The translations under genes were made by a program, and so were the position numbers. Shown piece after piece: positions 50,928 to 59,619 of a DNA stretch of 64,000 nucleotides. How positions within the stretch are numbered: position 1 is the first letter of the stretch; each line of letters begins with the position of its first letter. The stretch is from the NCBI GenBank assembly GCA_937884605.1, contig CALGDM010000028.1, forward strand, positions 1 to 64,000, written 5' to 3'. The DNA comes from an uncultured Spiribacter sp. (lineage in GTDB: Bacteria > Pseudomonadota > Gammaproteobacteria > Nitrococcales > Nitrococcaceae). The notes below the pieces were generated by a model. It did no database searches, had not been told where the DNA came from, and saw nothing but the letters and a program-made list of their open reading frames with translations.

Positions 50928-50968
50928 AACAGACGTTGCATTCTGTCATTGACGAGGAGAAGAACGGC

Positions 50969-52906
50969 ATGGCCGCAGAAAAACGCTATCCGGTGCCGCC
51001 GGAAACCGCCGACAATGCCCTGCTGGGGCGTGAAGCGTATGAGCGCATGTATCGGCGCTCGCTCGAGGACCCGGACGCGTTCTGGGGCGAGCAGGCGGAG
51101 ACCTTCCTTACCTGGTTCGAGCCGTGGGACCGCGTCCGCAACAACGACCTCACGCAGGGGCAGATCCGCTGGTTCGAGGGCGGCAAGCTTAACGTCAGCT
51201 ACAACTGCCTCGACCGCCATCTCGACACGCATGGCGACCGCAACGCCATCATCTGGGAAGGCGACGAGCCGGGGGTCACCCGGCATATCACCTACCGCGA
51301 ACTGCATGCCGATGTCTGCCGACTCGCCAATGTGCTCAAGTCGCGCGGCGTCTCGCGGGGTGACCGGGTATCGATCTACATGCCGATGATCCCCGAGGCC
51401 GTCGTCGCCATGCTGGCCTGCACCCGGATCGGGGCGGTCCACTCCATCGTTTTCGGCGGCTTCTCGCCGCACGCCCTGCGTGATCGCATCGAGGATGCCG
51501 ACTGCCGCACCGTCATCACCGCCGACCAGGGCCTGCGTAGCGGCAAGCCGGTCCCGCTCAAGGAGAATGTCGACAAGGCCATCGCCGATCTCGACCGTGT
51601 GCACTCGGTGATCACGGTGCGCCACACCGGCAACTCGGTGCCCTGGAATGACGAGCGCGACATCGACTACGGCAAGGCGCTTGCCGCTGCCTCCGATGAC
51701 TGCGCGCCCGAGGCGATGGATGCCGAGGATCCGCTGTTCATCCTCTATACCTCGGGGTCCACCGGCAAGCCGAAGGGCGTGCTGCACACCACCGGCGGCT
51801 ACCTGCTGCAGGCGGCGATGACCTTCAAGTACGTCTTCGACTATCACGATGGCGAAGTCTACTGGTGCACTGCCGACGTCGGCTGGATCACGGGGCATAG
51901 TTATATCGTTTACGGGCCGCTCGCCAACGGCGCCACCAGCCTGGTGTTCGAGGGCGTTCCGACCTACCCCGATGCGGGACGGTTCTGGCAGGTCATCGAC
52001 GACCATCAGGTCAACATCTTCTACACCGCGCCCACCGCCATCCGGTCACTGATGGGTCAGGGCGAAGCGATGGTCAAAAAGCACTCCCGGCAGTCCCTGC
52101 GTGTGCTGGGCACGGTGGGTGAGCCCATCAACCCCGAGGCCTGGGAGTGGTATTACCGCGTGGTCGGTGACGAGCGCTGCCGCATCGTCGACACCTGGTG
52201 GCAGACGGAGACCGGCGCGATCATGATCTCGGCACTGCCGGGTGCCGTCGATCTCAAGCCCGGCTCGGCGACGCTGCCGTTCTTTGGTGTCGAGCCGCAG
52301 CTCGTGGACAACGAGGGCAACGTCCTCGAGGGTGCCACCGAGGGCAATCTGTGCATCACTCAGGCCTGGCCGAGCATGATGCGCACGATCCACGGCGACC
52401 ATGAGCGCTTCATGAACACCTACCTCACGACCTACCCTGGCAAGTACTTTACCGGCGACGGCGCACGCCGCGACGAGGAAGGTTACTACTGGATCACCGG
52501 CCGAGTGGACGACGTGCTCAACGTCTCGGGCCATCGCATGGGCACCGCCGAAATCGAAAGTGCGCTGGTGCTGCATGATGCCGTGGCCGAGGCCGCCGTG
52601 GTGGGATACCCCCATGACCTGAAGGGTCAGGGCATCTACTGCTATGTCACGCTGGTGCAGGGCAAAGAGCCCAGCGACGACCTGCAGAAAGAGCTCGCCG
52701 GTCTGGTGCGCAGTGAAATTGGTCCCATCGCCAAGCCCGATGTCATCCAGTGGGCCCCGGGCCTGCCCAAGACACGCTCGGGCAAGATCATGCGGCGGAT
52801 CCTGCGCAAGGTGGCCACCAACGAGCTGGATAGTCTGGGAGACACCAGCACCCTGGCCGACCCGGGCGTGGTGGATGATCTGATCAGCCAGCGGGCCAAC
52901 CAGTAG
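50969..52906 (+). CDS. acs: Acetyl-coenzyme A synthetase
   Basis: Acs activates acetate to acetyl-CoA through acetyl-AMP. The 645-residue enzyme has the AMP-forming motifs [40 protein letters not shown] and the acetylation-controlled Lys in [13 protein letters not shown] near the C-terminus. The ATG at 50969 has GAGGAGA eight bases upstream. A terminator-like hairpin follows and then the symporter genes, so it forms a conserved acetate-use locus with them. It would consume the acetate made by the aldehyde dehydrogenase at 46789. Confidence 0.96.
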
Positions 52907-53360: not shown

Positions 53361-55115
53361 ATGGATCTCGCACTTACTACTTATCTGATTGTCGGCGCTA
53401 CCTTCGTCCTGTATATCGGTATCGCGATCTGGGCCAAGGCAGGAAGCACCGGCGAATTCTATGTCGCCGGCAAGGGGGTTCACCCAATTGCCAACGGCAT
53501 GGCCACCGCAGCGGACTGGATGTCCGCGGCCTCCTTTATTTCGATGGCCGGTCTCATCGCCTTTCTGGGTTACGACGCCTCTGTCTACCTGATGGGATGG
53601 ACTGGCGGCTATGTGCTCCTGGCACTGCTGCTTGCGCCTTATCTGCGCAAATTCGGTAAGTTCACGGTCCCCGAATTCATCGGCGACCGGTTCTACTCCA
53701 AGACGGCCCGCGTCATTGCGGTCATTGCCCTGATCGTTGCCTCGATCACCTACGTCATCGGGCAGATGAAGGGCATTGGCGTCGCCTTTTCGCGTTTCCT
53801 CGAGACGAGCTACGAGGTTGGGCTTTTCATCGGTATGGCGATCGTCTTTTTCTATGCCGTGATCGGTGGCATGAAGGGCATCACCTATACCCAGATCGCC
53901 CAGTACTGCGTGATGATCTTTGCCTACACGATCCCGGCGATCTTCATCTCGCTGGCCATTACGGGCAATCCGGCGCCACAGCTGGGTCTGGGCGGCACGG
54001 TCGCCGACGGCCAGTATCTGCTCAACACCCTCGACAACATCCTTGTCGATCTCGGGTTTTCGCAGTACACGGCGATGAAGGGCACCACACTCAACATGTT
54101 CTTCCTGACCATGTCGCTGATGATCGGCACCGCCGGTCTGCCCCACGTCATCGTGCGCTTTTTCACGGTGCCAAGGGTCCGGGATGCCCGACTGTCGGCC
54201 GGATGGACGTTGATTTTCATCGCCATTCTCTACACCACGGCACCGGCCGTGGGCGCGATGTCGTTCTACAACCTGATCAACACCGTCCAGCCGGGTGAGA
54301 TCGGGGCCGAGGACGGCAACCTGGCCTACGAGAATGTGCCGGGCTGGTTCTCGCGCTGGGAAGAGACCGGCCTCCTCGCCTGGGACGACAAGAACGACGA
54401 CGGCCGTATCCAGTACTACAACGCCGACAACCCGGCCTTCGAGTCCACCGCCGAGTCCTATGGCTGGCAGGGCAATGAGCTGACCGTTGATCGCGACATC
54501 ATGGTCATGGCCAACCCGGAGATCGCACAGTTGCCCAACTGGGTGATCGCGCTGACAGTCGCCGGTGGCCTCGCGGCAGCCCTGTCCACAGCGGCCGGAC
54601 TGCTCATGGCGATCTCCTCGTCGATCTCCCATGACCTGATCAAGGGGGTCATCAACCCGAAGATAGGCGAGAAGAGCGAGTTGCTGGCGGCGCGAATAGC
54701 GATGGGCGTAGCGGTCCTTGTGGCCGGCTACTTAGGCCTGAATCCACCCGGATTTGCGGCTCAGGTCGTCGCACTGGCCTTCGGACTGGCGGCCTCCTCG
54801 CTGTTCCCGGTTCTCATGCTCGGCATCTTCAACCGGCGTATGAACAGTTCCGGCGCCATCGCAGGCATGCTCTCGGGGCTAACCTTCACCTTGATCTATG
54901 TGTTCATCTTCAAGGGCTGGTTCTTCATCCCCGGCACCAACATGCTGCCGGACACGCCGGAGAACTGGCTGTTCGGGATCGGACCTCAGTCCATCGGTGC
55001 CATTGGCGCGTTGATCAACGTTATCGTGGCTGCGCTCGTGTCACGGGCCACGGCCCCGCCGCCGAAGGAAATCCAGGAACTGGTGGAGAGTATTCGGGTG
55101 CCGCGCTCGGCCTGA
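53361..55115 (+). CDS. actP: ActP-like sodium/acetate symporter (VC_2705 subfamily)
   Basis: This 584-residue SSS-family transporter has about 13 membrane segments, beginning LALTTYLIVGATFVLYIGIAIW. AGKGVHPIANGMATAADWMSAASFISMAG is the sodium-site region; VIGGMKGITYTQIAQY and GLAAALSTAAGLLMAISSSISHDL are also conserved. An extracytoplasmic insertion (about residues 315-385, rich in Asp and Glu) is typical of this subfamily. Partners and gene order with acs point to acetate or another short carboxylate. A strong terminator follows. Confidence 0.92.
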   Translation: MDLALTTYLIVGATFVLYIGIAIWAKAGSTGEFYVAGKGVHPIANGMATAADWMSAASFISMAGLIAFLGYDASVYLMGWTGGYVLLALLLAPYLRKFGKFTVPEFIGDRFYSKTARVIAVIALIVASITYVIGQMKGIGVAFSRFLETSYEVGLFIGMAIVFFYAVIGGMKGITYTQIAQYCVMIFAYTIPAIFISLAITGNPAPQLGLGGTVADGQYLLNTLDNILVDLGFSQYTAMKGTTLNMFFLTMSLMIGTAGLPHVIVRFFTVPRVRDARLSAGWTLIFIAILYTTAPAVGAMSFYNLINTVQPGEIGAEDGNLAYENVPGWFSRWEETGLLAWDDKNDDGRIQYYNADNPAFESTAESYGWQGNELTVDRDIMVMANPEIAQLPNWVIALTVAGGLAAALSTAAGLLMAISSSISHDLIKGVINPKIGEKSELLAARIAMGVAVLVAGYLGLNPPGFAAQVVALAFGLAASSLFPVLMLGIFNRRMNSSGAIAGMLSGLTFTLIYVFIFKGWFFIPGTNMLPDTPENWLFGIGPQSIGAIGALINVIVAALVSRATAPPPKEIQELVESIRVPRSA

Positions 55116-55137: not shown

Positions 55138-55167
55138 CCCCGGTGGCCCTGCCACCGGGGTTTTTTT
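55138..55167. terminator. Strong intrinsic terminator after actP
   Basis: CCCCGGTGGC at 55138-55147 pairs perfectly with GCCACCGGGG at 55151-55160 across a three-base loop and is followed by seven T. It overlaps the last codon of the convergent DUF294 gene. On the minus strand it lacks a T run, so it mainly serves actP. Confidence 0.92.
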
Positions 55168-57052
55168 ATAGCTGAAACCGCACTTCGAGCTTCTTGTGAA
55201 GCCGCCGCGCCTCGCGGAAGGCCTCCTTGAGGATCCGCCGATCCATCGGATTGACGTTCTCGGGATCCAGACGGTTGCCCATGGTGTCGCCGGTGACCGA
55301 CTGCTGCTGGTGCTCGCGCATTCTGAGCAACTGGACAAAGGCAAACGAACGCTCGAACGCTCCGGCATCCTCGGCGGTGAGTACGCCTGCGCGGGCGAGT
55401 TCGCGAAACCGGGTCTGGGTGTGCCCATCGGCAATGCCCGCCTGCAGGGCCAGCACCCGGGAGGCATCGACAAACGGGGTCAGACCCCGCACCTTGAGGT
55501 CCAGTCGATGGACGCCGTCGACATCGCGATCGGTCACAAAGTCCCGGAACACCCCCAGCGGCGGTTTGATGGCCAGTGCATTGGCCGCCAGTGTATGGAG
55601 GAATACCGAATTGCCCGCGGCCAGCTCCACCACCCGACGCTGCAGGGCCTCACCGGTGACCAGATCGCCCCATACGGGTCGAAAGTCGAAGTAGATCGTT
55701 GAACTGAGCACATTCTCCGGCGTGGCACTGGCCACCAGCCGGGCAAAGGTCGCCTCCCACTCCTCAAAGCTCAGGCACAGTCCCGGGTTGCTAGCCATCA
55801 CATTCCCCGTGCACAACGCAAAACCGCAGGCATCCAGCACCTCGTTGATACGCCGGGCCAGCGGCAGCAGGCGCTCGCGCACGGCTTCCGGTGTCTCGTC
55901 GCCGGGATCAAACAGGATGCCGTTGTCCTGATCGGTGACCCGGGTCTGCTCGCGTCGCCCCTCGCTGCCAAAGGCAATCCAGGTAAACGCGACGCCAGGA
56001 TCGCCACGCTCGGCCAGAACCAGCTCGATGGCGCGGGTGACCGTGCGGTCATTGAGCAGCGTGATGATACGGGTGATCTGCTCGACGCCGGCGCCATGGG
56101 CCATCATGCTGTCGATCAATGCCCCGACCTGGCCGCGCGCCAGCACCAGCGAGTCCACATCCTCGGCGCCGGTGATCGAGCGTGTCAGGTGGACCAGATT
56201 GATGCGCTGCAGGGCAAAGATGTCGCGCTCGGAAATGACACCGGCCAGTCGCCCGCGGGCGTCGGTGACGATCATGTGACGGATATGATGCCGCGCCATC
56301 TCGACCACCGCCTCGAAGGCGTAGGTCTGGGTATCCAGCGTGATCGGCTCGCGGGTCATCACCGCCGCCAGCGATTCATCCAGATGGCTGCCCTGCGCGA
56401 CCACGCTGCGCAGGTCGTGCAGTGTAAAGATGCCCTGGGGGCGCTCGTCGGCATCAGTGACCAGCACACTGCCCACCTTGCGTGTCTGCATGGTGGCCAC
56501 GGCCTCGCGGACCGAGGTGTGGGCCTCGCAGGTCAGCGGATGGCGATTCATGAGCTCGCCCAGCGGGGTGTCCATGGTGGTATCGCTGCCCAGGTTGCCG
56601 GCGGCGCGGTGCTGGATGTCCTGCTGGACCTGATCGAGTAATCCGCTCACTCCGCGCAGGCAGTAGTCACGGAACATGGGACTTTCGCTGACGAGATGCT
56701 CGAAGGTGGTCCGGGGGATGCGCAGACACTGCGTCGGCGTGCCGGCGCGATAGACCGTGCGGGTGGCTCGCTGACCGATCATCGCCGCCATCGGGAAATT
56801 GTCCCCGGGACCCAGCTCAAAACGCTCGCCACCGGGGCGCTCGGCGCGCACCTGACCGTCGACAATCAAGTAGAAATAGCCGGCCGGCTCCACCGACGGC
56901 TCGAGAATGACCGTGCCGGCGGTATAGCGGCAGACCTCGCAATGCTCGCGAAAATGCCGCTGCAGCGCCCGTGGCAAACGGTCGAAAGGGGCATGCGCAT
57001 CCAGAAATCCGCGTACCACCGAAGCGTCGGTGTCGGCCGTGTCGTCGGTCAT
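55166..57052 (-). CDS. cNMP-binding/CBS/DUF294 nucleotidyltransferase-like regulatory protein
   Basis: This 628-residue cytoplasmic protein has a cyclic-nucleotide-binding domain (about residues 20-135, including VEPAGYFYLIVDGQVRAE), a CBS pair (about 165-290, HTSVREAVATMQTRKVGSVLVTD and HHIRHMIVTDARGRLAGVISERDI), a DUF294 nucleotidyltransferase domain with AFGSEGRREQTRVTDQDNGILF, and a C-terminal DUF294_C domain. The GS..R and DxD residues of the GlnD-like active site are intact. It probably reads cAMP and adenylate levels and may modify a partner, perhaps the symporter. It is convergent with actP and divergent from the receiver gene. Confidence 0.88.
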   Translation of the reverse strand: MTDDTADTDASVVRGFLDAHAPFDRLPRALQRHFREHCEVCRYTAGTVILEPSVEPAGYFYLIVDGQVRAERPGGERFELGPGDNFPMAAMIGQRATRTVYRAGTPTQCLRIPRTTFEHLVSESPMFRDYCLRGVSGLLDQVQQDIQHRAAGNLGSDTTMDTPLGELMNRHPLTCEAHTSVREAVATMQTRKVGSVLVTDADERPQGIFTLHDLRSVVAQGSHLDESLAAVMTREPITLDTQTYAFEAVVEMARHHIRHMIVTDARGRLAGVISERDIFALQRINLVHLTRSITGAEDVDSLVLARGQVGALIDSMMAHGAGVEQITRIITLLNDRTVTRAIELVLAERGDPGVAFTWIAFGSEGRREQTRVTDQDNGILFDPGDETPEAVRERLLPLARRINEVLDACGFALCTGNVMASNPGLCLSFEEWEATFARLVASATPENVLSSTIYFDFRPVWGDLVTGEALQRRVVELAAGNSVFLHTLAANALAIKPPLGVFRDFVTDRDVDGVHRLDLKVRGLTPFVDASRVLALQAGIADGHTQTRFRELARAGVLTAEDAGAFERSFAFVQLLRMREHQQQSVTGDTMGNRLDPENVNPMDRRILKEAFREARRLHKKLEVRFQL

Positions 57053-57158: not shown

Positions 57159-57173
57159 ATGCTGAGCGGCTAA
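57159..57173 (+). CDS. Possible four-codon upstream peptide (MLSG), translationally coupled
   Basis: ATG CTG AGC GGC TAA follows a strong GAGGAGGAGG at 57137-57146. The TAA shares its last A with the ATG of the receiver gene (TAATG). The receiver start itself has no good ribosome site within 15 bases. A coupled leader would explain how it is translated. The spacing of 12 bases from the GA-rich site is long, so this is tentative. Confidence 0.35.
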   Translation: MLSG

Positions 57174-57547
57174 TGGTTAAAACAATTCTGATTGTCGACC
57201 ATGAATCCAACCTGACCAGTGCCCTGCGTTTTCTACTCGAGCAGTCGGGCTTTCGGGTGGCACTCGCCAACAATGGCACTCAGGCCGAGGCAGCAATGGC
57301 CGAGGCCGCCCCGGATGTCGCGCTGGTCAACACCACATTGCCCGATCGCAGCGGTTATGACCTCTGCCAGCGCCTGCTCCGGGGCGCCGGCGCCATGGGG
57401 CTACCGATCCTGATGCTGACCTCACACAGTCTCGAGGTGGAGCGCGAAAAGGCCTTCTCGCTGGGCGCCACGGACTTTATCGTCAAGCCCTTCGATCCGA
57501 CCGCCATCCTCGGCCGGATCCGCTCGCTGGCAAGCGGAGCCGCCTGA
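57173..57547 (+). CDS. Pseudo-receiver domain protein (phospho-acceptor Asp replaced by Asn)
   Basis: This 124-residue protein is a stand-alone CheY-like receiver. The fold markers are present: ILIVDHESNL with the acidic pocket D9 and E11, LMLTSH with the conserved Thr, and FIVKPFDP with Lys105. At the position of the phosphorylated Asp the sequence is ALVNTTLPDRSGYDLC, so residue 53 is Asn. It cannot be phosphorylated normally and may be locked in one state or bind a partner or ligand. It is followed after two bases by the pseudo-kinase/exonuclease gene. No output domain is present. Confidence 0.85.
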   Translation: MVKTILIVDHESNLTSALRFLLEQSGFRVALANNGTQAEAAMAEAAPDVALVNTTLPDRSGYDLCQRLLRGAGAMGLPILMLTSHSLEVEREKAFSLGATDFIVKPFDPTAILGRIRSLASGAA

Positions 57548-57549
57548 GG

Positions 57550-59619
57550 GTGCGAGCCTTTCGGCTCCCGCGGCTGCGCAAGCGGCTCTGGGGATCGACG
57601 GCGGTCATCGCCGCAAGCGGTGCCCTGGCCGCCACCGCGCTGAGTGGGGTCCACCCGCTGCTGGCCGGTGCGGCGGCGGGGCTCGCGCCGGTGGCTGCAG
57701 GGCTGCTGCTGGATCGGCGTGTTACCCGCCCACTGAGTGCCACCGAGCGCGGGGCCGGCATTATCGCCAGCTCCAACCCCGGCCATCGGCTGGAACTGCC
57801 AGCGCGCCACTGGCTGGGTCGTCTGCCCGAGACCGTCGAGCAGCTCGGCGGTACCGTGGCGCGCAGTCGTCGCGAGATGGAAGAAGCCGCCTCGGCGTGG
57901 ACCACGCGCATCGAAGCCCGCAAGGCCCGGCTGGAGACCATCCTGCGCGAGATCCGCGAAGGCGTCGTGGTGTGTCGCGACGATGGCCGCATCACGCTCT
58001 ACAACCGCACCGCCCGCCTGCTGCTGGACGCCGAACCGGCACTGGGGCTGGGCCGGTACCTGCACGAAGTCCTTAACGACGGGCCCCTGCGGCACGCGCT
58101 GGGCCTGCTTGATCCATCCGCCGATGCCGCCAACGGTGCCGATACCGAACTGGTCTGCGCGACGGCAAGTGGTGAGCGGCTTTTACGCTGTCGGGTGGCG
58201 CGACTGATCACCGATGACCCTGGCACCGACGGTTTTGTGATCACCCTCACCGATGTCTCGCGCCAGACCCGGGCGGTGCTGCGGCGCGAGCAGAGCCTGC
58301 GCGAAGCGGTGGAATCACTGCGTGATCCACTGACCAGCCTGTGTACGGTCAGCGAGAGCCTGCGGCTCGCCCAGCAGGCACAGATGGGAGACGACGCCGA
58401 GCGCTTCGGGCGCATGCTGCATGAAGAGACCCGACGGCTGACCGATGCCTTTGCTCACCTGTCGGATGAGACGGCGTCAATGGTCACCGATAACTGGCGG
58501 CTCGAGGATCTACACCTGGGCAGTCTGGTGGCGGGCATCAAGAAAAATGCCGCTGCAAACCAGCTGCCGCGGGTGCAGTGCAGCGCCGACGTGTGGGTGT
58601 CCGCCGAACCCTATCTGCTCAGTCAGGTGATCGAGGCTTTGCTGATGCGGCTGGCCGATACCCTGGGCGTCAGCGCGGTCGCCCTGTCCGGGCGCGAGCA
58701 GGGCAGCCTGGTCTATCTGGACATGAACTGGTCGGGTGATGTGGTGAGCCCCGATCAACTCGACGCGTGGCTGGATGCCGGTCTGGATGACGTCGGGGGC
58801 ACGGTGACGTTACGCGAGGTCCTGCAGCGTCATGACACGACGGTGTGGAGTCAGCCCGACCTCTCACGCCCCCACCGCGCGCTGCTCAGACTCCCCCTGC
58901 CCGGTGCCCCCGCAAAAACCGAGGCGCCCACCACCGTTGCCGCGCGGCCCGAGTACTACGACTTTGCCGCCGACGAGGCTGAGCCGGTGCGGGCGTTGGG
59001 GGATGAGGCGGAACGCCGGCTCGGCGATCTCGACTATGTGGTCTTTGATTGCGAAACCACTGGCCTGGAGCCGGGCCACGGCGATGAGATCGTTGCCATT
59101 GGTGCGGTGCGCATCCACCAGGGCCGCGTCATGCATGGCGAGACCTTCGAGCTGCTCGCCAACCCCGAGCGGCCGATACCGGCGCTGGCTTCAAGCATCC
59201 ACGGCATCCATGACGAGGATGTTGCCGATGCGCCGCCGGTGGACGAGGCGGTGCGGCGCTTTCATGCCTTTGCCGGCAACGCCGTGCTGGTGGGCTTTAA
59301 CATCGCCTTCGACATGCGCTTTCTGCGCCTCAAGCAGCGCCGATGTGGCGTGCGCTTTGATCACCCCACGCTGGATGCGCTCCTGCTGTCCATTCTGCTG
59401 CATGACCATACCGGCGAGCATACCCTCGAGGGGGTCGCCCGGCGGCTGGGCGTGGGCGTGGGGGGCCGGCATACCGCGCTGGGTGATTCGCTGACCACCG
59501 CCGAGATCATGATCCAGCTCTTTGAACTGCTCCCCGAAGCGGGCATTACCCGACTCGAAGAAGCAATCGACGCCCAGGAAAAAATGGTCGAGTTCCGTCG
59601 TCAGCAACGCGCCTTCTAA
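57550..59619 (+). CDS. Membrane PAS/pseudo-histidine-kinase fused to a DnaQ-type 3'-5' exonuclease
   Basis: This 689-residue protein starts at GTG 57550 with GGAG ten bases upstream. Two membrane helices (about residues 14-52) are followed by a HAMP-like and coiled-coil region and a PAS domain (about 125-235, ILREIREGVVVCRDDGRITLYN). A histidine-kinase-like core follows (about 245-455). Its H-box reads VESLRDPLTSL, with Glu255 where the phosphorylated His should be. The N-box (QVIEALLMRLAD) and the G-boxes have lost their Asn and Gly residues. The C-terminal exonuclease (about 490-675) keeps the DEDDh set: D500, E502, D588, H641, D646. The kinase half should be inactive and the nuclease half active. 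Confidence 0.85.
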   Translation: MRAFRLPRLRKRLWGSTAVIAASGALAATALSGVHPLLAGAAAGLAPVAAGLLLDRRVTRPLSATERGAGIIASSNPGHRLELPARHWLGRLPETVEQLGGTVARSRREMEEAASAWTTRIEARKARLETILREIREGVVVCRDDGRITLYNRTARLLLDAEPALGLGRYLHEVLNDGPLRHALGLLDPSADAANGADTELVCATASGERLLRCRVARLITDDPGTDGFVITLTDVSRQTRAVLRREQSLREAVESLRDPLTSLCTVSESLRLAQQAQMGDDAERFGRMLHEETRRLTDAFAHLSDETASMVTDNWRLEDLHLGSLVAGIKKNAAANQLPRVQCSADVWVSAEPYLLSQVIEALLMRLADTLGVSAVALSGREQGSLVYLDMNWSGDVVSPDQLDAWLDAGLDDVGGTVTLREVLQRHDTTVWSQPDLSRPHRALLRLPLPGAPAKTEAPTTVAARPEYYDFAADEAEPVRALGDEAERRLGDLDYVVFDCETTGLEPGHGDEIVAIGAVRIHQGRVMHGETFELLANPERPIPALASSIHGIHDEDVADAPPVDEAVRRFHAFAGNAVLVGFNIAFDMRFLRLKQRRCGVRFDHPTLDALLLSILLHDHTGEHTLEGVARRLGVGVGGRHTALGDSLTTAEIMIQLFELLPEAGITRLEEAIDAQEKMVEFRRQQRAF

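Follow-up and report, generated by a model that had tools for sequence, protein, structure and literature searches.

The window analysed here is a 64,000-nucleotide stretch from the genome (1.80 Mb) of an uncultured Spiribacter-like bacterium (contig CALGDM010000028.1, positions 1 to 64,000). In it, a gene for a stand-alone receiver protein (REC) is followed on the same strand by a gene for a membrane-anchored PAS–pseudo-histidine-kinase–exonuclease protein, here called KEXO; the REC stop codon ends at 57547 and the GTG start of KEXO begins at 57550, two bases on. Relatives of both genes form, with a gene for a transporter-like histidine kinase (HK1), a three-gene module that is present in Gammaproteobacteria and elsewhere in the phylum. 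No published description of this HK1-REC-KEXO module was found in the open-access PMC literature, and the module, widespread and apparently undescribed, together with its silencing in the window's genus, is the larger finding. The features of the two window genes are:

57173..57547, + strand: stand-alone receiver REC (D9, H10, N53, T83, K105), with no normal phospho-acceptor (Pfam, alignment)
57329..57331, + strand: Asn53 codon, phospho-acceptor position (sequence, alignment)
57550..59619, + strand: KEXO, a membrane-anchored PAS–pseudo-histidine-kinase–DEDDh exonuclease, GTG start (Pfam, profiles)
57586..57708, + strand: two hydrophobic stretches of KEXO, likely a membrane hairpin (sequence, by eye)
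57925..58269, + strand: PAS domain of KEXO (Pfam PAS_4/PAS_9)
58270..58503, + strand: pseudo-DHp domain of KEXO, proposed receiver dock (profile alignment)
58312-58314, + strand: E255 codon, at the phospho-His position (alignment)
58321-58323, + strand: R258 codon, invariant residue (alignment)
58504..58899, + strand: degenerate ATP-binding (CA) domain of KEXO (profile alignment)
58729-58731, + strand: W394 codon, aligned with the G1-box Asp (profile alignment)
59038..59508, + strand: DnaQ-like DEDDh exonuclease with D500, E502, D588, H641 and D646 intact (Pfam, alignment)

REC is 124 aa long, matches Pfam Response_reg (3.1e-24) and carries D9, H10, E11, N53, T83 and K105. A phosphorylatable receiver has Asp53 and two acidic metal ligands; the window's REC has N53 and H10, and the receivers of its relatives have two acids at positions 9 and 10. 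A preliminary description of this DNA had correctly named N53 and the kept Thr and Lys; the acidic pocket that it also took to be kept is half there, with D9 in place and H10 standing for the second acid.

KEXO (689 aa) has two hydrophobic stretches at about residues 13-53, read by eye as a putative membrane anchor, a Pfam PAS_4 match at 134-240 and an RNase_T match at 497-653 (3.1e-30). The Pfam models HisKA and HATPase_c found no match in KEXO, and NCBIfam WalK (1.5e-15) and PnpS (3.2e-13) matched its middle, both below their curated cut-offs. An 18-member KEXO profile searched against the PDB recovered a VicK-like kinase (4i5s, 1.2e-18), and the KEXO family profile aligned with intact HK1 kinase cores at an hhalign probability of 98.9 (E 3.8e-17); KEXO thus has the homology to a histidine kinase core without phospho-His that marks DivL-type proteins. 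In the alignment with the HK1 cores, E255 takes the place of the H-box His, W394 aligns with the G1-box Asp, and the N-box Asn is not kept, so that the phospho-His, N-box Asn and G1-box Asp of an active histidine kinase are all missing. The DEDDh motif reads DxE ... D ... H(x4)D, and its five residues are all present in KEXO (D500, E502, D588, H641, D646), from which catalytic activity is predicted. The preliminary description had read the protein in the same way, as a membrane anchor, a PAS domain, a kinase-like core with E255 and lost N- and G-box residues, and an intact C-terminal exonuclease, and had likewise tied the inactive core to the nuclease at an acetate locus.

Loss of the phospho-His extends through the family: His was found at position 255 in 0/94 aligned sequences (of 99 distinct KEXO open reading frames) and in 0/18 aligned sequences from other lineages of the phylum (of 20 open reading frames). 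In the 73 pairs with a receiver that lie outside the decayed clade, residue 255 was Glu (58), Arg (5), Gln (3) or another residue (7), and R258 and W394 were each present in 73/73; an 18-row KEXO alignment was invariant at E293, W349, V388, G396, W407, H428, W433 and R447. Because no relative has His at 255 and R258 and W394 are fixed, the pseudokinase is ancient and under constraint, and its loss of the phospho-His is ancestral; decay of the kinase partner in this genome only is ruled out by the same counts. KEXO shares the layout HAMP/PAS/DHp/CA with VicK/WalK-type kinases (PDB 4i5s, 3a0r and others), which, unlike KEXO, are ordinary kinases without a nuclease, and such a kinase is the likely source of the pseudokinase part, judging from sequence similarity.

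The third gene of the module was seen at L101 (L and G numbers denote loci and genomes), where an SSF-like histidine kinase, in which Pfam registers only HisKA and HATPase_c, lies downstream of KEXO; relatives of this kinase at ≥44% identity are called HK1, and the copy at L121 matches SSF (3.1e-06) as well as HisKA and HATPase_c. The His, Asn and Asp of the kinase boxes are present in 35/35 HK1 rows (34 distinct proteins); no STAC linker model surfaced for HK1, STAC not having been sought by name. Among 92 near-full-length KEXO rows (window included), REC lies on the same strand within 100 bp in 70, HK1 lies within 500 bp in 52 (downstream in 48, upstream in 4), and both adjoin KEXO in 50; three of the 52 HK1 rows (L026, L027, L087) hold the kinase core of HK1 only. 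In a class sample, HK1 matches at E≤1e-150 were found in 21 of 369 genomes, with those of G223 and G323 covering only the transporter part of longer proteins. Fourteen of the remaining 19 genomes have KEXO and five do not (E≤1e-40), absences in the class and phylum searches being soft because only two or three candidates per genome were scored. REC adjoins HK1 in all five of the latter (L174-L178); the two thus also occur as a pair by themselves. At one of these loci (L178:6992-11610), HK1, REC and a CBS-DUF294 protein lie in a row on one strand with no KEXO nearby; the CBS-DUF294 protein may be another output through which this receiver acts.

HK1 had no match in the 14 genomes of the window's genus. 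Ten of them have only a second class of SLC5-like kinase, 34-38% identical to HK1 (32-38% for the class as a whole), which is provisionally taken for CbrA because the copy at L179 adjoins acs and a further regulator (an open reading frame with a 31%-identical receiver stretch). Four genomes (G000, G039, G042, G051) have no second-class kinase either at E≤1e-40. These are exactly the genomes with N53, and the match is one event on one branch.

Of the receivers adjacent to KEXO, those of the window and the three genomes closest to it have Asn at position 53, and almost all the rest have Asp; beyond the genus, such receivers are normal with the sole exception of G052 (D9 H10 E53), so that family-wide decay of the receiver is ruled out. 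Within the genus (13 rows), positions 9-10-53 read D-S/N/H-D in 8, D-H-N in 4 (window, G042, G051, G039) and D-D-D in 1 (L015), with D53 kept in L081, L082, L083, L116 and others. The loss in the receiver is recent and is seen where HK1 is missing, and the genus forms a natural series, from D9/D10/D53 through loss of D10 to loss of D53, in which the phospho-signal is removed and the protein partners stay. Of the two losses on which the preliminary description rested, that of the His at 255 is ancestral, whereas Asn53 is confined to the window, G042, G051 and G039; close homologues with a normal Asp and His, which it had named as the mark of recent random losses, were half found, since genus members with D53 exist and none has His255. 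In its model, receiver and kinase work as a pair without phosphorylation, sensing a ligand directly and controlling the nuclease. The window lineage, with N53, H10, E255, no HK1 or second SLC5-like kinase match (E≤1e-40) and persisting selection (below), agrees with that model to the extent that phosphotransfer via the pair looks impossible in this genome. It is not the design of the family, however, in which most relatives retain an intact kinase and a receiver that can be phosphorylated, and the model is considered improbable.

To relate kinase and receiver states, a tree of 95 rows was used, made up of the 99 open reading frames minus five (partial L127, L131 and L132; the 275-aa half of L086; L006) plus L011, under which L006 was entered. 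The co-loss table held 78 rows, leaving out L024 (contig edge) and 16 HK1-bearing rows without an adjacent receiver. Receivers were intact in 60/60 rows with HK1 and in 1/18 without it; 59/59 and 1/17 are the sounder figures, because the "receiver" of L055 is another kind of regulator, encoded on the opposite strand at a distance of 773 bp, and because the upstream side of L040 runs off its 3,224-base contig. A Fisher test on the raw counts (2.9e-16) ignores relatedness and was not relied on. On the tree, the HK1 state needs 4 changes and the receiver state 5, and agreement among four independent pairs averaged 3.7/4, no pair being opposed (p=0.125, the minimum that four pairs allow). Among rows from other lineages of the phylum, which lie outside the co-loss table, receivers were intact in 12/12 with HK1 (9 with HK1 beside KEXO, 3 with HK1 elsewhere).

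Selection on the window's version was estimated by Nei-Gojobori as the ratio of nonsynonymous to synonymous substitution rates (dN/dS) against G042, G051 and G039, in that order; several dS values exceed 1, and the ratios are rough. REC gave 0.066, 0.108 and 0.059 and KEXO 0.065, 0.091 and 0.073. Within KEXO, the exonuclease (0.035, 0.043, 0.044) was the lowest segment in two of the three comparisons and the DHp (0.032-0.088) in the third (0.032); the CA domain gave 0.045-0.135 and the membrane part 0.257, 0.120 and 0.103, and the neighbouring truB gave 0.138, 0.180 and 0.192 and pnp 0.023, 0.061 and 0.054. Both genes are still under purifying selection, the receiver constrained like its partner. 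These ratios bear on plain decay, by which the receiver and kinase core of a small genome would be drifting remnants and only the exonuclease would matter. Such decay is suggested by the missing HK1, by genus genomes of 1.2-2.2 Mb and by genus DHp scores of 39-54, against a 5th percentile of 70 and a minimum of 53 in training (segment profiles trained on 52 module members). Two single loci point the same way: in G040 (L086, 7815-10069) KEXO is split around the CA domain into two overlapping open reading frames (589 and 275 aa), by either a frameshift or an assembly error, and G032 (L076) has no adjacent receiver, no HK1 and no recognisable DHp, with a weak PAS and the exonuclease kept. In the N53 clade, however, REC, DHp and CA all have ratios below those of truB, and all 13 genus rows scored have an open REC reading frame at the locus, which makes plain decay rather unlikely.

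The explanation that we favour, with modest confidence, is that the pair is a silenced derivative of the HK1-REC-KEXO module, in which HK1 would phosphorylate REC, REC would dock on KEXO and the exonuclease would thereby be gated. HK1 may sense a small carboxylate or its flux; phosphorylated REC would then dock on the pseudo-DHp helices around E255/R258, and the pseudokinase, also set by its own PAS domain, would relay this to the exonuclease as changed activity or access. As DivL does for DivK~P, the pseudokinase would in this case serve as a receptor for the receiver instead of supplying phosphate. In the window lineage, HK1 would have been lost, the receiver would have lost D10 and then D53, and the pair would persist as a fixed complex controlled through the PAS domain, expression level or both. 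Of this reading, the homology, anatomy, linkage of the genes, joint loss of kinase and receiver, and purifying selection are observed; the HK1-to-REC phosphotransfer, docking, nuclease gating, signal and substrate are inferred. Acetyl phosphate as sole phospho-donor, which was also considered, would leave the HK1 linkage unexplained.

The closest parallel is Caulobacter DivL/DivK. DivL acts on the kinase CckA. Like DivL, KEXO combines PAS with a histidine kinase core without phospho-His, a single-domain receiver partner and an Arg at H+3; unlike DivL, it is fused to a nuclease, has mostly Glu where DivL has Tyr, and has an invariant Trp at the G1-box Asp. The parts of PMC4211667 drawn on here report that the DivL core has no kinase or phosphatase activity and binds DivK~P, and that R553A, at H+3, weakens this binding. 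R258 of KEXO sits at the same place, and marks docking weakly because the ordinary H-box, HELR, has this Arg as well. Support for docking is indirect, from co-variation and co-loss, with exceptions. Six copies have DHp scores of only -3 to 4 (L076, L105, L196, L197, L202, L203); none of them has an adjacent receiver, and their exonucleases score 216-281. Correlations of REC distances with those of each KEXO segment, given the other segments, were 0.39 for DHp, 0.23 for CA, 0.16 for the exonuclease, -0.07 for the membrane part and -0.25 for PAS (85 pairs; L006, L055, L077, L102, L200 and receivers of <30% identity left out beforehand). The corresponding values without the decayed clade (73 pairs) were 0.32, 0.30, 0.11, -0.06 and -0.07, and no p-value is attached because the pairs are not independent.

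Several observations weigh against the silenced-module explanation. As to docking, DHp and CA are about equal without the decayed clade, with wide subsample ranges (DHp 0.05-0.42), and R258 fits an ordinary H-box. The DHp is kept, at 75-86, in nine class II copies that have no receiver next to them (L063-L065, L067-L072); these are perhaps served by a receiver in trans, as suggested because G005 and G009 carry REC-HK1 near pnp (L180, L181). L099 has a DHp of 46 without receiver or HK1, L202 and L203 have lost the DHp even with an HK1-like kinase in their genomes, and DHp scores are low despite a receiver beside KEXO in L198 (15) and L194 (34). An AlphaFold2 model of KEXO from a two-row alignment had a mean pLDDT of 33 and was not used. 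As to co-loss, phylogeny-aware support comes from the four independent pairs only, 13 of the 18 HK1-less rows belong to one genus, and L015 keeps D9/D10/D53 without HK1. The rule linking HK1 and receiver also has exceptions, because all three phylum rows without a full HK1 at E≤1e-60 (L194, L204, L207) have intact receivers with the acidic pair and D53. In G700 (L194) there is only a partial HK1 match, in a longer protein. At L204:5493-8918 and L207:5446-8574 (G546, G498), a GAF-bearing hybrid kinase with receiver domains lies beside KEXO, with an Hpt as well in L207; this could be a swap of the kinase.

The nuclease as output raises a separate question. At L077:7872-9944 the catalytic residues are replaced, and at L115:7830-9029 the exonuclease domain is absent, in both cases with REC and HK1 beside KEXO intact; no other single observation argues more strongly against the nuclease being the sole output. 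These two modules would suit a KEXO that acts as a phosphatase or sink for REC~P, or as a receiver-regulated scaffold with the nuclease a secondary passenger. That alternative is nevertheless very improbable, given that no KEXO has His at 255, that the exonuclease has the lowest dN/dS in most comparisons and that, besides L077 and L115, the full-length rows scored retain its five residues.

Receivers mostly act on DNA-binding or second-messenger domains. The module may represent a new class of two-component output, running from a transporter-like kinase through a lone receiver to a pseudokinase fused to a membrane-bound exonuclease and coupling nutrient uptake directly to nucleic-acid or nucleotide turnover, with the Spiribacter circuit as a case in which rewiring has left a constitutive complex that needs no phosphate and is kept by selection; this broader proposal is tentative, and we would give it somewhat less than an even chance. 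If a phospho-receiver acts on a nuclease via an inactive kinase, this would open a new output route and provide a second, more widespread case of a receiver-reading pseudokinase. It would also give a signalling context to exonuclease/CBS-DUF294 genes of acetate and pyruvate regulons that, as far as the cited portion of PMC9927547 goes, have no mechanism.

Carboxylate-linked control of RNA or nucleotide turnover is the likeliest role by analogy, because of the pyruvate phenotype of Pseudomonas putida PP_0353, the ErdR and CrbR regulon members and the DUF294 genes near many KEXO loci. According to the portions of the sources cited, PP_0353 belongs to the RNase_T family and shares an operon with PP_0354, a CBS-domain protein; it is required for growth to be normal on pyruvate but not on acetate at 20 mM, and was speculatively linked by its authors to mRNA decay (PMC9927547); the pair is a MxtR/ErdR target, and ErdR binds the PP_0354 promoter (PMC8402216). 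Homologues of PP_0353/PP_0354 adjoin actP in P. aeruginosa PAO1 (PMC9927547), which supports the statement in the preliminary description that nuclease and DUF294-type genes accompany actP. The KEXO locus resembles this operon in its RNase_T-family and CBS-domain proteins and in its proximity to actP, and the operon is genetically linked to pyruvate use; compared by description only, PP_0353 is characterised in that part of its source as an RNase_T/exonuclease, with no mention there of a receiver or kinase-like region. With the SLC5/STAC kinases CbrA, CrbS/MxtR and RpuS, as excerpted from PMC5715377 and PMC7918813, HK1 shares an SSF-like N-terminus and a histidine kinase core; unlike theirs, its partner is a receiver without an output domain.

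The window gene order is acs, actP, DUF294 (opposite strand), REC and KEXO, then pnp and truB pointing back. The genes upstream of REC are:

50936..52906, + strand: Acs open reading frame, acetyl-CoA synthetase (Pfam, locus order)
53361..55115, + strand: SSF symporter, ActP-like (Pfam, locus order)
55166..57052, - strand: cNMP-binding/CBS/DUF294 nucleotidyltransferase-like protein, divergent from REC (Pfam)

The DUF294 protein has a domain make-up like that of Pflu5625 (cAMP-binding, CBS, nucleotidyltransferase), described as a CrbR regulon member in the section of PMC5715377 consulted. No sigma-70 promoter match was found at the locus, and the one terminator-like match is within chance. The protein at L113:7959-9464 (502 aa), which adjoins DUF294 and actP, has the exonuclease behind hydrophobic N-terminal stretches and lacks the kinase-like core; it is a further fusion of this exonuclease. 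Additionally, pnp and truB lie near REC-HK1 or REC-KEXO, with or without KEXO, at L174, L175, L180, L181, L090, L091, L093 and in the window, which may reflect either a common ancestral location or a connection with RNA decay.

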